From positions 4,278,001 through 4,342,000 of the forward strand of contig NZ_CP129212.1 in the NCBI RefSeq assembly GCF_030413175.1: 64,000 nucleotides of DNA, written 5' to 3'. Of the stretch, positions 58,937-63,973 are shown piece after piece. A model generated the notes under the pieces. It was not told the DNA's origin. It made no database searches and saw only the letters and a program-made list of their open reading frames with translations. The DNA is from Bradyrhizobium roseum (GTDB lineage Bacteria; Pseudomonadota; Alphaproteobacteria; Rhizobiales; Xanthobacteraceae). The first letter of the stretch is position 1. The number at the start of each line of letters is the position of its first letter. Both the position numbers and the translations under genes were made by a program.

Positions 58937-59467
58937 CTAACGCGTCGATTTCACAAGCCTTACGAACAATTGAATACCGCGCGAATTGGCGTCCGGCTGG
59001 CCGTCGATGAAATCGAAATTCCAGTAAAGGTCCAACTCGCCGCCCATGGCGTTCGTGGTCCAATACTTTGCGTGCCCCTCGGCATCCGCGCGTATATCAG
59101 GAAATACGGACGGATCGACAACCGGGCTGCCACAACCAACGTCTACCAAACTTTGGAGTTCTGGGCCCGAAGGGACACGCCATCCCTCAGATGCCGCGGC
59201 AATGGCTTCTTTCAATCCAAGATACTGAACCTGCCCCTCACACGCCCCATGGCCTGTCCACTCGGTGCCCAGGGAACATCGCTTCCAAAGCAGGCCCGTT
59301 TTCGTATCCCGCACTTCACCGCCAAGAAGTTGGAAGCGCGTCTGAGGAGTTGATCCATCGCGGCCATAGCACCCCGCGATGCAGGACATCGGAGCCACGA
59401 CAAGCAGGACTGCTGTCGTCAGCAGCACGCAACAAAGGCTTTGCGGCCGTTCGAGAGGTTTGAGCAT
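58937..59467 (-). CDS. Secreted DUF1566 domain protein
   Basis: A 176-residue protein with an N-terminal hydrophobic signal (LCCVLLTTAVLLVVAPMSC). The DUF1566 (Lcl-type) fold shows as VRDTKTGLLWKRCS, GWRVPSGPELQSLVD and YWTTNAMGG. Such domains occur in secreted or surface proteins and are related to lectin-like folds. Cysteines near residues 29, 33, 64, 76 and 112 could form disulfides. It lies downstream of the kinase pair on the same strand with a 72-base gap, so co-transcription is possible. Confidence 0.8.
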   Translation of the reverse strand: MLKPLERPQSLCCVLLTTAVLLVVAPMSCIAGCYGRDGSTPQTRFQLLGGEVRDTKTGLLWKRCSLGTEWTGHGACEGQVQYLGLKEAIAAASEGWRVPSGPELQSLVDVGCGSPVVDPSVFPDIRADAEGHAKYWTTNAMGGELDLYWNFDFIDGQPDANSRGIQLFVRLVKSTR

Positions 59468-59539: not shown

Positions 59540-60892
59540 CTACCTCGCCAGTTCCAGGCGTGCTTCCAGTCCGCCGCCGTCGCGATTGGCGAGCGTGAGC
59601 GTGCCGCGAAGCGCGTTGACGAGTTGCTGGGCGATGGCGAGGCCGAGCCCGGTGCCGCCGGTTTCGCGACTGCGCGAGGCCTCGACGCGATAGAACGGCA
59701 AAAATACCGATTTCAGATGCTCGTCGGGAATGCCGGGGCCTCGGTCCGATACGCTGATCGCGATGCTATCCGATTGTTGCGCATCGATGGCGACTTCGAC
59801 ATCCTCGCCGAATTTCAGCCCGTTATCGATCAGGTTGATCATGATGCGGCGCAAGGCCTGCGGGTGCGTGAGAATCGTCACCCCGCGTTCTCCGGAAAAG
59901 CGAACAGAATTTCCGGCGTCGGAATAGTCGCAGACGAGGCTGTCGATCAGGGCATGCAGGTCGGTCTGGCAGCGCTGCTCGCTAATCTCGTCGCGGCCGC
60001 GGGCCAACGCAAGACCCTGCTTGACTAGCGTCTGCATTTCCTGCAGGTCGCCCTGCAGCTTTTCCCTGGCGTCGCCGTCACCGAGGAAATCAGCGCGCAG
60101 CCGCATGCGCGTGATCGGAGTCTGAAGGCGGCGCGAGATCCCCGCCAGAATCTGGATCCGCTCCACCGCCTGCTCGGCAATGCGACGCTGCATGGCGTTG
60201 AACGCGGTAGCGGCGCGCACCACTTCCTTCGGGCCATCCTCCGGGAGCGGCGCGGCGCGCAGATCCGAACCCAGGCTGTTGGCCGCACGCTCGAGGCGCG
60301 CCAGCGGTCGTGTCGCGAGCTTCACCGCAACCCAGGTGAAGAATGCGAGAAAGCAGAGTTGGACGGCGAGCGCCGCCGGCAACCAGGGCGAAACCAGCGT
60401 CGGCAACAAAGGCGAAATGGCCCTCCTCGGTGCGGCGAATTCGAGCATCAGCGGGCTGCCGTCCTTAAGGTGAATGAGCCAGCCCAGTCTCTGTCGATTC
60501 AGTGGATCGAGGTAGAAGACGGTGGTCGCGTCGTGGTCGCTCCCCAGCATGGCCCTCAAACGCGCCAGGTTCTCTTGTCGTCGTTTGGGTGGCGCCGCTT
60601 CTATCTCCCCTCCCTCTCTGACAACGTATCGATATGTAGGTCGAGCGAAGCGGTCGAGCCATGCGGGTCTTTCTTCGGGCTTGACCCGATCGAGGATAGC
60701 GACCGCCATCGCGATGGATCTCATGAAATAGTCATCCGACTGCTCGCCGCTGGGGCCGAAGACATTGAGGGCGACCAGACCAAAGGACAGCAGATGCGCA
60801 GCCAGCAGACCGGCGAACAGGATGATCGCCAGCCGGCGGAACAGTGAGTCCGGCCAAAGACGCGCCGCCATACGTCGAAGGTGGGCGCTCAT
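59540..60892 (-). CDS. Histidine kinase with intact ATPase domain but no phospho-accepting histidine
   Basis: A 450-residue membrane sensor kinase. Membrane segments lie at about 20-43 and 172-192, with a periplasmic sensor of about 125 residues between, then HAMP (193-245), dimerisation helices (246-300) and an HATPase domain (310-450) with N-box IDNGLKF (N357), SDRGPGIPD and GGTGLGLA. In the H-box the sequence is ISRRLQTP: the conserved His and following acidic residue are R254 and R255. The paralogue upstream reads ISHDLQTP. It should bind ATP but cannot accept phosphate itself. It is coupled by ATGA overlap to the paralogue. Confidence 0.9.
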   Translation of the reverse strand: MSAHLRRMAARLWPDSLFRRLAIILFAGLLAAHLLSFGLVALNVFGPSGEQSDDYFMRSIAMAVAILDRVKPEERPAWLDRFARPTYRYVVREGGEIEAAPPKRRQENLARLRAMLGSDHDATTVFYLDPLNRQRLGWLIHLKDGSPLMLEFAAPRRAISPLLPTLVSPWLPAALAVQLCFLAFFTWVAVKLATRPLARLERAANSLGSDLRAAPLPEDGPKEVVRAATAFNAMQRRIAEQAVERIQILAGISRRLQTPITRMRLRADFLGDGDAREKLQGDLQEMQTLVKQGLALARGRDEISEQRCQTDLHALIDSLVCDYSDAGNSVRFSGERGVTILTHPQALRRIMINLIDNGLKFGEDVEVAIDAQQSDSIAISVSDRGPGIPDEHLKSVFLPFYRVEASRSRETGGTGLGLAIAQQLVNALRGTLTLANRDGGGLEARLELAR

Positions 60893-61824
60893 GACGGCTC
60901 CCGCGATGCTTCGACGGCGACATGCGCGGTGGCCTGCGGGCCAATGCCGTCGTACTCCCGCGCCAGGGCGAGACCCTGCTTGATAAGCGTCTGCATTTCC
61001 TGCAGGTCGCCCTGCAGCTTTTCCCTGGCGTCGCTGTCGCCCAGGAAATCAGCGCGCAGCCGCATCCGTGTGATCGGGGTCTGAAGATCGTGCGAGATCG
61101 CCGCCAGAATCTGGATTCGTTCCGCGACCTGCTCGGCAATGCGTCGCTGCATGGCGTTGAGCGCGGCAGCGGTACGCGCCACTTCCTTCGGACCATCCTC
61201 CGGGAGCGGCTCGGCGCGCAAATCCGAGCCCAGGCCGTTGGCTGCGCGTTCGAGGCGCGCCAGCGGTTGCGTCGCGAGCTTTACGGCAACCCAGACGAAG
61301 AATGCGATGATACAGAGTTGAACGGCCAGCGCCGCCGGCAACCAGGGCGAAATGATTTCCTTCGCCGGAAAGATCGCGATCGTCACGGGGCTACCGTCCT
61401 TCAGGTGCATGCGTATGCCCCGTCGCAGTCGCTGCGGTGGATCGAAGTGGACAAAATTCGCGTCGTGGTCGGGCCCCAGCGCGGCCCGCAAACGCGCGAT
61501 ATTCGCTTGCCGTCGTTTGGGTGTCTCCGCTTCCAGCTCTCCCTCATCGCTGAGAATGTATCGCCAATTGCGTCGAGAGACGCGGTCAAGCCAGGCGGGT
61601 CTTTCTTCAGGCTTGAGGTGGTCGAGGATGGCGACCGCGTCCGCGATGTCCCCAGCCGCAAATTTACTCCCCATTTCGTCTTCGATAGCGATGCGGTCGA
61701 GGGCAATCAAAACGAAGGCCAGCACATGTGCAACCACGAGGCCGGAAAACAGGATCATCGCCAGCCGGCCGAACAGGGAGGCCGGCCAAAGTCGCGCCGC
61801 CATGCGCCGAAAACGCGCGCTCAT
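60889..61824 (-). CDS. Truncated histidine kinase: sensor, HAMP and phospho-accepting His, no ATPase domain
   Basis: A 311-residue protein closely similar to the downstream kinase over its whole length. Membrane segments lie at about 20-43 and 162-183, with HAMP and dimerisation helices containing ISHDLQTPITRM (H245, D246). It ends at about 30 residues past the second dimerisation helix with its own stop, before any N, D or G box. The next gene starts in the stop codon (ATGA) and no ATPase remnant lies between. It can accept phosphate but not make it, and needs a catalytic partner, most simply the kinase encoded next. Its own ATG overlaps the regulator's TGA. Confidence 0.9.
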   Translation of the reverse strand: MSARFRRMAARLWPASLFGRLAMILFSGLVVAHVLAFVLIALDRIAIEDEMGSKFAAGDIADAVAILDHLKPEERPAWLDRVSRRNWRYILSDEGELEAETPKRRQANIARLRAALGPDHDANFVHFDPPQRLRRGIRMHLKDGSPVTIAIFPAKEIISPWLPAALAVQLCIIAFFVWVAVKLATQPLARLERAANGLGSDLRAEPLPEDGPKEVARTAAALNAMQRRIAEQVAERIQILAAISHDLQTPITRMRLRADFLGDSDAREKLQGDLQEMQTLIKQGLALAREYDGIGPQATAHVAVEASREPS

Positions 61825-62561
61825 GTCGGCCCCTGCAATGCCTCGACGGCGGCTGCAAAGACGTAGCCTTCGCTGCGCACCGTCTTGATGTAGGACGGCT
61901 CCCGGGCGTCTTCGCGCAGTCGCTGGCGAAGGCGGCTGACAAGCAGATCGATCGACCGATCGAAGACTTCGGCCTCACGGCCTTGCGTCAGGTTGAGCAG
62001 TTGATCGCGATTGAGGACATGTTGGGGGTGATCGAGAAACACGCGCAGCAGTCGATATTCGGCGCCGCTCAACGAGACCACGGTCCCGTCGGCGTCGACG
62101 AGGAAACGCCCGGCCGTATCGAGCTTCCATTCGCCGAACCGCAGAAGGCGGGCTTTCTCCGATGCCGCAAGGTTGCGGGGCAGCATCTCGGCCCTGCGCA
62201 AAACCGAGCGGATCCGTGCGAGCAGTTCGCGCGGGGCAAACGGCTTCGTGAGATAGTCGTCCGCCCCCATCTCCAGGCCGACGATGCGGTCTGCTTCATC
62301 GCCGCGCGCCGTCAGCATCAGGATCGGAATGTCATAGGGTTGATTCGCGCGCAAGTTGCGGCAGAGCGTAAGGCCGTCGTCCCCCGGCAGCATCAGGTCG
62401 AGCACGATCAGATCGATCCGGTGGTTTGCGAGAACCTCGCGCATCTGCCGGCCGTTAGCCACCGTCGTGACCCGATAGCCGTTACCGACAAAGTATCGGT
62501 CCAGCAGCTCGCGCAAACCCAGGTCGTCGTCGACGACGAGAATGTGGTTCGGATTGCCCAT
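61821..62561 (-). CDS. OmpR/PhoB-type response regulator of the split-kinase operon
   Basis: A 246-residue regulator. Receiver domain: acidic pocket D11-D12, phosphoacceptor D55 in LIVLDLMLPG, T84 and K106 (DDYLTKPFAP), all present. A C-terminal winged helix of the OmpR type follows (VVSLSGAEYRLLRVFL; SIDLLVSRLRQRL; YIKTVRSEGYVF). ATG 62561 begins MGNPNHILVVDDD; the longer frame upstream is not supported. It is the first gene of a three-gene operon with 4-base overlaps to both kinases. A TGTAAC/TGTATC direct repeat 45-60 bases upstream suits self-control. Confidence 0.93.
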   Translation of the reverse strand: MGNPNHILVVDDDLGLRELLDRYFVGNGYRVTTVANGRQMREVLANHRIDLIVLDLMLPGDDGLTLCRNLRANQPYDIPILMLTARGDEADRIVGLEMGADDYLTKPFAPRELLARIRSVLRRAEMLPRNLAASEKARLLRFGEWKLDTAGRFLVDADGTVVSLSGAEYRLLRVFLDHPQHVLNRDQLLNLTQGREAEVFDRSIDLLVSRLRQRLREDAREPSYIKTVRSEGYVFAAAVEALQGPT

Positions 62562-62605
62562 ACGCGCCAGAGTACTCAACCGCCGAGGCAAGTGACATCC
62601 CATTT

Positions 62606-62621
62606 TGTAACGTAATGTATC
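62606..62621. promoter_or_regulatory. Candidate OmpR-type direct repeat TGTAAC-N4-TGTATC
   Basis: TGTAAC (62606-62611) and TGTATC (62616-62621) repeat with a 10-base period, the spacing that places two OmpR-family monomers on one helix face. It lies in the 260-base divergent region between the regulator gene and the secreted six-cysteine proteins. Confidence 0.35.
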
Positions 62622-62821
62622 GTCCTGCCGTACCGACATAGAAAATTTCAAAAGCGGCCGACGCGGAAATTCGCGGGATACATCGGACATTTCAAGTGAT
62701 GCTGGCCTTCCTTTTGGGAGATGCGAGATCGCTGCACTGCGGCGAACCTGCCGCCCGACTGAACGCTTTGTTGCGCGCGTGGAAGATGCATGTGGCTGCG
62801 CCGAACTTGGGAGTAAGAGTG

Positions 62822-63370
62822 ATGAGAATGTCATCGAGCCCTGTCACGCCCTCAGCCGTCGCGATCCTGTCAATCTCATTGTTGTTCGGCTTAAGCGGCA
62901 CGGCTGCCTCGCAAACCACGCCAAGCTCCCCTCTGCCCAGCGTTACGGTCACGGCGCCGGAGCAAAAAGCGAGGCCGCTGCAGGGGCAGGTGCGAGCTGC
63001 AAACAAGGGTACAGGTTTCCGAAGAGGCCAGACCGCCCGGACGACGGCTCAAACAGCGGGAGGGACGACGCCGCTCAGTCCTGTGGCGGCGAAGCTTGCC
63101 CGACTCGAGCGAGAGGCCAGCAGTTGCAACGATGGCTGCGAGTCAAGTCGCCCACGTGGCAAGGATCCTTGGGTTGGATGCAGTGAATCGGCAGGATACA
63201 ACTCGGTTTTCTCAGCAACCTGCAAGGACACACTCACGCACAGGGACTACGCGCAATGCGTAGAAACCAAAATGTTCCTGGGCTGGGACCGCAACCGATC
63301 GTGGTGGTATTGCAATGGCATGCTGAATGGGGGGAAATTCCGGGTCACCGCGGAGAATCGAAACAGGTAG
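62822..63370 (+). CDS. Secreted six-cysteine protein A
   Basis: A 182-residue protein. The signal peptide (AVAILSISLLFGLSGTAASQ) is followed by LPSVTVTAPEQKARP, a basic Thr/Gly-rich linker, and a C-terminal domain of about 85 residues with six cysteines, including ASSCNDGC, FSATCKD, YAQCVETKMFLGW and WWYCNGM. The same pattern recurs in the next gene, so the pair arose by duplication. ATG 62822 is used (GTG 62819 is next to it). No known domain was recognised. It is divergent from the split-kinase operon, a position where sensor ligands or regulated targets are often found. Confidence 0.75.
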   Translation: MRMSSSPVTPSAVAILSISLLFGLSGTAASQTTPSSPLPSVTVTAPEQKARPLQGQVRAANKGTGFRRGQTARTTAQTAGGTTPLSPVAAKLARLEREASSCNDGCESSRPRGKDPWVGCSESAGYNSVFSATCKDTLTHRDYAQCVETKMFLGWDRNRSWWYCNGMLNGGKFRVTAENRNR

Positions 63371-63409: not shown

Positions 63410-63973
63410 ATGAGAATGTTATCGAGCCTTGTCGCCCCCTCGGCGCTCGCTGCCCTGTCGACCGTGTTGCTGAGCGGCACGGCAGCCGCGCAAACGGCAA
63501 CCACCAGCCAGCTTCCCGGCATCACCGTCGTGGCGCCGAAGCAGGTCGTAAGGCCGGTAGCAAGACCACAGCGGCAGGCGCCCCCGGTGGCAAACACGGT
63601 GGCAGCTCGCCCGGCAGCGCCAGCCCCTCAAACGCCATCGACATCAGCTCAAAAGCCGGCGGCCGGCTCAGTGATGGCGAGAATTGCCGCGCTTGAGAAG
63701 ACCTCCAGCAATTGCACCGACGGCTGCCAGACAAGCTTCAAATACGGCAACCAACCGTGGAACGGATGCTCCACGTCAGGAGATTTTACGATATCGACAA
63801 CGTGCAGAAACGGACGCAACTACAAGACCTACCAGGAGTGCCGGGAGACCGGAATGTTTCTGGCATGGAGACAATTTGAAGTCTGGTGGTACTGCAGCAG
63901 CCTGCATGCCGGGGGCAAGCTTTCCGGAGAGAAGCAGCAGGTCGCCGAACTCAAGCGATCAGGCCGTCGCTAA
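63410..63973 (+). CDS. Secreted six-cysteine protein B (paralogue of A)
   Basis: A 187-residue protein with a signal peptide (LAALSTVLLSGTAAAQ) and LPGITVVAPKQVVRP after it, matching protein A. A Pro/Ala-rich linker leads to a C-terminal domain with SSNCTDGC, ISTTCRN, YQECRETGMFLAW and WWYCSSL, six cysteines in the same order. Both genes start ATGAGAATG after GGGAG. It begins 39 bases after protein A's stop, so the two are likely one transcript. The paired aromatic and cysteine pattern suggests a disulfide-stabilised exported domain. Function is unknown. Confidence 0.75.
   Translation: MRMLSSLVAPSALAALSTVLLSGTAAAQTATTSQLPGITVVAPKQVVRPVARPQRQAPPVANTVAARPAAPAPQTPSTSAQKPAAGSVMARIAALEKTSSNCTDGCQTSFKYGNQPWNGCSTSGDFTISTTCRNGRNYKTYQECRETGMFLAWRQFEVWWYCSSLHAGGKLSGEKQQVAELKRSGRR

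Follow-up and report, generated by a model that had tools for sequence, protein, structure and literature searches.

A pair of paralogous membrane-bound histidine kinase genes with complementary catalytic lesions in Bradyrhizobium roseum and its relatives

The cassette and its neighbourhood

In the window, by which we mean the whole 64,000-nucleotide stretch of the Bradyrhizobium roseum genome (7.32 Mb, one contig) that was analysed, three genes of a two-component system follow one another on the minus strand in the order response regulator (RR), upstream kinase (HK1) and downstream paralogue (HK2), and both junctions are 4-nt ATGA overlaps. The RR gene (61821..62561, minus) encodes an OmpR-type regulator of 246 aa counted from MGNPNH, with Pfam matches to Response_reg (9.9e-32) and Trans_reg_C (5.2e-21), and its sequence places the phospho-acceptor at D55 within IVLDLML. 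HK1 (60889..61824, minus; 311 aa) consists of a membrane sensor, a HAMP domain and a DHp domain without an ATPase domain: Pfam matches HAMP and HisKA and no HATPase, the C-terminus lies 22 residues past the HisKA match, and a GvpL_GvpF match stays below cut-off. The intact phosphoacceptor and general base of HK1, H245-D246 in the motif ISHDLQTP, are encoded by CAC GAT (61087..61092, minus). HK2 (59540..60892, minus; 450 aa) has a membrane sensor, HAMP, a His-less DHp domain and a full ATPase (CA) domain, for which Pfam gives HAMP, HisKA with a score short of the curated threshold (23 vs 26.9 bits) and HATPase_c (3.4e-24) at residues 344-448 (59549..59863, minus). In its motif ISRRLQTP, R254-R255 (codons CGC CGC, 60128..60133, minus) replace His-Asp, and the H+4 residue, at a position required for HisKA phosphatase activity (PMC3510030, in part), is T258 (60119..60121, minus).

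Phospho-acceptor and ATPase thus reside on separate proteins, here and in nine of the ten cassettes known to us, the HK2 of B. jicamae having His with Arg at H+1; neither HK1 nor HK2 alone combines the His and its adjacent acidic residue with an ATPase domain. Summed over both kinases, the domains are those of an EnvZ/CpxA-type two-component system (sensor, HAMP, DHp and CA, with an adjacent OmpR-type regulator), the best PDB matches are CpxA (8.5e-30) and EnvZ, and HK1- and HK2-type proteins alike carry at H+4 the Thr/Asn of bifunctional HisKA kinase/phosphatases. Pfam found in HK1 and HK2 neither of the CheA-type hallmarks, an HPt (P1) domain and a CheW-like coupling domain. The original prediction had described an upstream kinase that has H245 and ends before the ATPase motifs, a downstream one with a complete ATPase and Arg-Arg in place of His and the acidic residue, and ATGA overlaps joining all three genes; the sequence, the Pfam matches and both junctions bear this out. 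Its statement that the sensor, HAMP and dimerisation regions are very similar holds for HAMP (83% identity) and DHp (88%) and is too strong for the sensor, as TM1 and sensor are 58% identical; over 306 aa, HK1 and HK2 share 68% identity.

Divergent from the RR gene stand two paralogous genes on the plus strand, sec1 (62822..63370), whose small, Cys-rich product begins with a signal-like stretch and which has a homologue with 8/10 cassettes, and sec2 (63410..63973), which has one with 10/10; no Pfam match was found for either. Eight cassettes have both genes and two (G196, G197) have one, a further copy lies at L071:3854-4342, and no sec homologue was found in the stretches searched around the single kinases of L072 and L077. 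Between the RR start and the sec gene lie 232-559 nt in seven cassettes, and 0.9-2.4 kb in the other three. We regard sec1 and sec2 as candidate targets of RR. Immediately ahead of the RR start (62561-62690 in the window, and its equivalents), some 130 nt form a block that is strongly conserved in the ten cassettes and possibly represents a promoter and regulator site. In strain SRL28 (L076, near 7443), the N terminus of the RR frame is altered, and the conserved block ahead of the usual start differs there by a single base. Just downstream of HK2, the window also encodes a small secreted-looking protein with an Lcl_C domain (58937-59467, minus; 5.7e-20), whose gene was not found near the cassettes of other genomes.

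The same genome holds a second RR-HK1-HK2 cassette outside the window (L009:12348-15381), 10.8 kb off and with the identical two lesions. Of the 54 HisKA matches in this genome, all except those of the two HK1 copies are followed by a HATPase match no more than 400 nt downstream. The dS between the copies (0.27 for RR, 0.20 for HK1, 0.36 for HK2) lies inside the between-species range. Neither the HK1 trees nor the HK2 DNA tree unites the copies as sisters, but the protein tree does so for the two HK2 copies (87/85). Such divergence and the mostly non-sister placement make a separate arrival more likely than a fresh local duplication, without proving it. The second cassette brings its own sec1 and sec2 (L009:15615-16864), and the two systems could cross-dimerise.

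Distribution, residue conservation and selection

Of the 265 genomes searched in the genus, nine carry the RR-HK1-HK2 order, in ten cassettes altogether, two of which belong to the window genome; HK1 was sought in 60 genomes and HK2 in 265, the latter search scoring six candidates per genome. At 1e-60 or better, HK2 found matches in 17 of the 265 genomes, nine with the pair and eight with only a distant match of 40-44% identity over about residues 135-450; the two distant matches that were read are both full-length with the His-Asp motif. HK1 is truncated with ISHDLQTP in 10/10 cassettes; HK2 is His-less in 9/10, with Arg at H+1 in every one, its motif being ISRRLQTP or ISRRLQNP in seven, IARRLQTP in two (G196, G197) and ISHRLQTP in one (B. 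jicamae, G001). All frames are open, and HK1 and HK2 are adjacent and translationally overlapping in each cassette. The original prediction had asked whether truncation and His loss occur together in relatives, and had named a homologue of either gene alone, or a full-length upstream gene in close relatives, as evidence against it. The pair occurs together in all ten cassettes with the lesion frequencies just given, neither HK1 (60 genomes) nor HK2 (265) was found alone in the genus, and no cassette has a full-length HK1. An accident private to this genome is rejected with ten cassettes known, and so is a recent pseudogene, given the open frames, the purifying selection and the near-invariant catalytic residues in database relatives. 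The pair is nevertheless rare, which we count against the reading of HK1 and HK2 as a heterodimer.

At the database scale, we examined the best 120 of 934 proteins found with HK1 at 1e-60 and the best 120 of 4089 found with HK2 at 1e-80, both searches having scored the 8000 candidates sharing most words; these sets favour like forms because they were chosen by likeness to the window's own proteins. Among the best 120 HK1-type proteins, 117 have His-Asp and no CA motifs. Of the three exceptions, P0098 and P0109 are full-length proteins that begin as HK1 and continue as HK2, and P0096 is truncated with Arg-Arg. In the 115 HK1-type rows left after dropping P0048, P0067, P0096, P0098 and P0109, H and D are each present in 115, and H+4 is T in 114 and S in one. 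For the best 120 HK2-type proteins, the His position is occupied by R in 117, H in two and Q in one, H+1 is R in 120/120, and H+4 is T in 89, N in 30 and S in one; the N-box, F-box and G2-box patterns are found in 120/120 and D.G.GIP in 117/120. By eye, 11 HK1-type entries in the best-120 lists share the size of their longest contig with an HK2-type entry, which suggests that the two are linked on one contig. One such size match joins P0096 to the Arg-Arg HK2 P0157, an apparent cassette with Arg-Arg in both genes, which apparently breaks the rule unless it is an assembly artefact. P0098, P0109 and P0096 lie on short metagenome contigs and are apparent HK1/HK2 recombinants, reflecting either real gene conversion or assembly artefacts.

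Both kinases are under purifying selection, which is strongest in both DHp domains. The median pairwise dN/dS (44/45 pairs) is 0.145 for RR, 0.301 for HK1 and 0.300 for HK2; by region, mean dN over mean dS for HK1 and HK2 is 0.089 and 0.099 in DHp, 0.23 and 0.17 in HAMP, and 0.39 and 0.44 in the sensors, with 0.190 in CA, and therefore the His-less DHp of HK2 is constrained like the His-bearing one. Between partners inside a cassette, identity is 53-60% in TM1 and sensor, 80-92% in HAMP (9 cassettes) and 82-91% in DHp. At the 90% level, HK1 and HK2 are told apart by 21 columns. Twelve of these fall within residues 19-138 and two (182, 186) immediately precede the HAMP match; the His and Asp positions make two more, another is residue 300, and the last four belong to the CA range, in which the alignment of the HK1 tail carries no meaning. 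Besides the His and Asp, no column of HAMP (191-239) or DHp (244-299) separates the two at this level, and homodimers are therefore not visibly excluded.

Ancestry of the lesions

Full-length single relatives give the direction of change. In a family sample of 391 genomes, 13 match at 1e-65 or better, comprising two cassette genomes and 11 genomes of other genera with one match each; nine of these 11 single relatives were read (L083-L091, leaving out L092 and L093), and all nine have a long frame, ISHDLQTP and the N-box motif. The single kinases of G031, which also bears a cassette, and of G058 are likewise full-length with ISHDLQTP. Since the single full-length relatives all read ISHDLQTP, comparison of the sequences puts the lesions of the pair as the derived state. 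In the tree, all HK1 sequences form a single clade (100/98); the HK2 clade is weakly supported (82/56) and stands next to the singles (100/100).

How the truncation arose can be read at the end of HK1. The 3' tail of the HK1 gene (60889..60922, minus) is homologous to that of the RR gene (61821..61854, minus), which appears as its source, 23 of the 30 nt before ATGA being identical, as in a duplication scar. With HK1 and the RR gene in register, 21-26 of these 30 nt agree in 9/10 cassettes, whereas elsewhere in the RR gene the agreement is at most 16-18; the tenth cassette (G031) scores 13, its HK1 ending one codon earlier and out of register. In 9-nt blocks over the ten cassettes, identity is 0.73-0.88 across the last 27 nt (the final four being ATGA); one block further upstream it falls to 0.54, and beyond that to 0.14-0.36. 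This likeness of the HK1 end to that of the RR gene points to one tandem duplication as the probable cause of the truncation. A duplicated segment reaching from the RR tail to a point shortly beyond the DHp domain of the ancestral kinase would account for the RR-HK1-HK2 order and the truncated upstream copy; it would also have supplied the downstream copy with a start region, including a purine-rich stretch that may be read as a ribosome site.

On a DNA tree of 20 rows, a single clade of Arg-bearing HK2 was not rejected (AU p 0.085), which weakens the certainty with which the His of B. jicamae is seen as a reversion. On a protein tree of 132 rows (120 HK2, 12 HK1), the R/non-R label takes four changes, and one R clade was rejected (p 0.0037) on 55 rows, 44 with R and 11 others, a set made of every third of the 120 HK2 with chosen neighbours and eight HK1. 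Therefore at least some of the non-R proteins P0132, P0156 and P0240 descend from R. From these trees, the His of the B. jicamae HK2 is likely, and only likely, a reversion from R. The cassette concerned (B. jicamae PAC68, L068:3275-5370) has His-Arg in an HK2 on a long tree branch, the His being regained or retained, and its HK1 is shortened to 256 aa because the HAMP segment is absent in frame.

Proposed division of labour between the subunits

Joint occurrence in 10/10 cassettes, the finding of neither gene alone, the constant truncation of HK1 and the purifying selection make a trans-complementing kinase the best reading, and we consider it likely, judging from sequence, that the pair is a fixed natural heterodimer of the EnvZ/CpxA type with its catalytic parts divided between two paralogous membrane subunits. 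Dimerisation would rest on the HAMP and DHp regions, which are similar in HK1 and HK2; with its ATPase domain HK2 would bind ATP and phosphorylate His245 of HK1 in trans, and HK1 would hand the phosphate to D55 of RR. HK2 homodimers would be unable to make phosphate and would probably dephosphorylate RR, because Thr/Asn is kept at H+4; as a consequence of such phosphatase activity, the output would depend on the heterodimer share. According to passages of PMC3904827, CpxA phosphorylates across the dimer: the His of a subunit is phosphorylated by the ATPase of its partner, the acidic residue that follows this His serves as general base, and the choice between cis and trans is set by the DHp loop; if the DHp domain here were of the cis kind, the pair could not be a kinase. 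For the tested HisKA kinases, passages of PMC3510030 state that kinase activity requires the acidic residue after the His but not the Thr/Asn at H+4, and that the reverse holds for phosphatase activity. HK2 is without the His-Asp needed for the kinase and has the H+4 residue needed for the phosphatase, HK1 keeps these residues without an ATPase, and we infer that HK2-to-HK1 trans phosphorylation in a heterodimer is the simplest workable scheme. The heterodimer of the original prediction is thus favoured by the complementary lesions and their co-conservation; the word obligate is not, as HAMP and DHp do not visibly forbid homodimers, and the claim that homodimers of either protein would be inactive went beyond the evidence, an HK2 homodimer with Thr/Asn at H+4 being a possible phosphatase; the same applies to the built-in dosage check that it proposed. 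Against the heterodimer stand the His-bearing HK2 of B. jicamae, whose partner HK1 has no HAMP, and the three database proteins that break the HK1 pattern.

The same residues admit a reading in which the pair is no kinase at all, HK2 being a dedicated RR phosphatase, HK1 a phosphate shuttle, sink or competitor, and RR being charged by small-molecule phosphodonors or other kinases. HK2 lacks the two kinase residues and has T/N at H+4 in 119/120 (best 120 of 4089), and the CrdS mutants H371A and E372A retain phosphatase activity according to part of PMC3510030; however, PleC H610A lost both activities in the same source, so that loss of the His can harm phosphatase activity, and neither the conserved HATPase domain and motifs of HK2 nor the H and D of HK1-type proteins (115/115) would obviously be needed. 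We therefore hold this reading to be unlikely. It seems more improbable still that HK1 mainly pairs with, or is phosphorylated by, another kinase, such as the HK2 of the second cassette or a related single kinase, with HK2 as a modulating pseudokinase. The second cassette has similar DHp domains, G031 carries a single full-length relative beside its cassette, and heterodimers of the paralogous kinases ChrS and HrrS have been shown (PMC9491836, in part), yet HK1 and HK2 are adjacent with overlapping frames in 10/10 cassettes, and at E <= 1e-60 the sole matches in the window genome are the four cassette kinases. That the locus is decaying, with HK1 a by-product of the duplication and HK2 a dying pseudokinase, we find very hard to credit: HK1 was truncated by duplication, that of B. 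jicamae lost its HAMP, and the median dN/dS of the kinases (0.30) is about twice that of RR, but the frames are open in 10/10 cassettes, dN/dS is well below 1 with the tightest constraint in both DHp domains, and the catalytic residues are near-invariant among database relatives.

A trans-complementing kinase being preferred, a further-reaching proposal is offered tentatively, at less than even odds. By one tandem duplication and two residue changes, a homodimeric sensor may have been turned into a two-gene sensor in which HK1-HK2 would be the sole kinase, HK2-HK2 a dedicated phosphatase kept kinase-dead by the maintained Arg-Arg, and HK1-HK1 a phosphate-accepting partner. If this were true, RR would read the subunit ratio plus two different sensor domains together, and the locus would be a membrane-bound EnvZ-type counterpart of the bistable CheA3/CheA4 system and would illustrate cleanly, in nature, how a homomer evolves into an obligate heteromer.

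Relation to known split kinases

His-less and ATPase-less mutant subunits of EnvZ can complement each other. In EnvZ and CpxA, however, one gene gives a homodimer and such complementation is a laboratory trick, whereas here the lesions are natural and on two genes, and the complementation is apparently fixed by evolution. Kinases of this type with OmpR-type regulators have the same domains as the pair, and trans phosphorylation is known for CpxA (PMC3904827, in part). A division of labour between two proteins is known from CheA3 and CheA4 of Rhodobacter sphaeroides, which are inert alone and together supply phospho-acceptor and ATPase, with one of the partners, when free, having the phosphatase activity; ultrasensitivity was modelled for them, and the share of HisKA proteins that might be both split and bifunctional was put at 1.7%, as given in parts of PMC3591291. 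That system is of the CheA type, soluble and with its domains divided as P1 vs P3-P4, whereas HK1 and HK2 are paralogues that both have sensor, HAMP and DHp.

Rv0600c and Rv0601c of Mycobacterium tuberculosis are split halves. The two kinase genes are said to serve one regulator, TcrA (PMC9274095, PMC10743970, both in part). Hik36 and Hik43 of Synechocystis are termed a split histidine kinase, both halves of which interact with the regulator Rre6 (PMC7656254, in part); unlike HK1 and HK2, they are CheA-like halves, at distant loci and non-paralogous. In the pseudokinase ChrS of Corynebacterium glutamicum, a kinase with its CA domain cut affects signalling via its paralogue, but it is laboratory-evolved, its own His is dispensable, and the truncated form gave no two-hybrid heterodimers (PMC9491836), whereas the H and D of HK1 are conserved.

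Among the open-licence papers searched, we found no natural paralogous membrane-bound EnvZ-type pair with complementary lesions. The locus displays the route to such a pair, through a readable duplication scar, full-length single relatives and naturally occurring variants, one with a His probably regained by HK2 and with an HK1 that has lost its HAMP, and it opens the questions of how obligate heteromers come from homomers, whether kinase and phosphatase can be shared among dimer types, and whether a His-less DHp is a phosphatase. Split kinases were already known; what appears new here is a pair of this kind formed by two paralogous, membrane-bound kinases of the EnvZ type.
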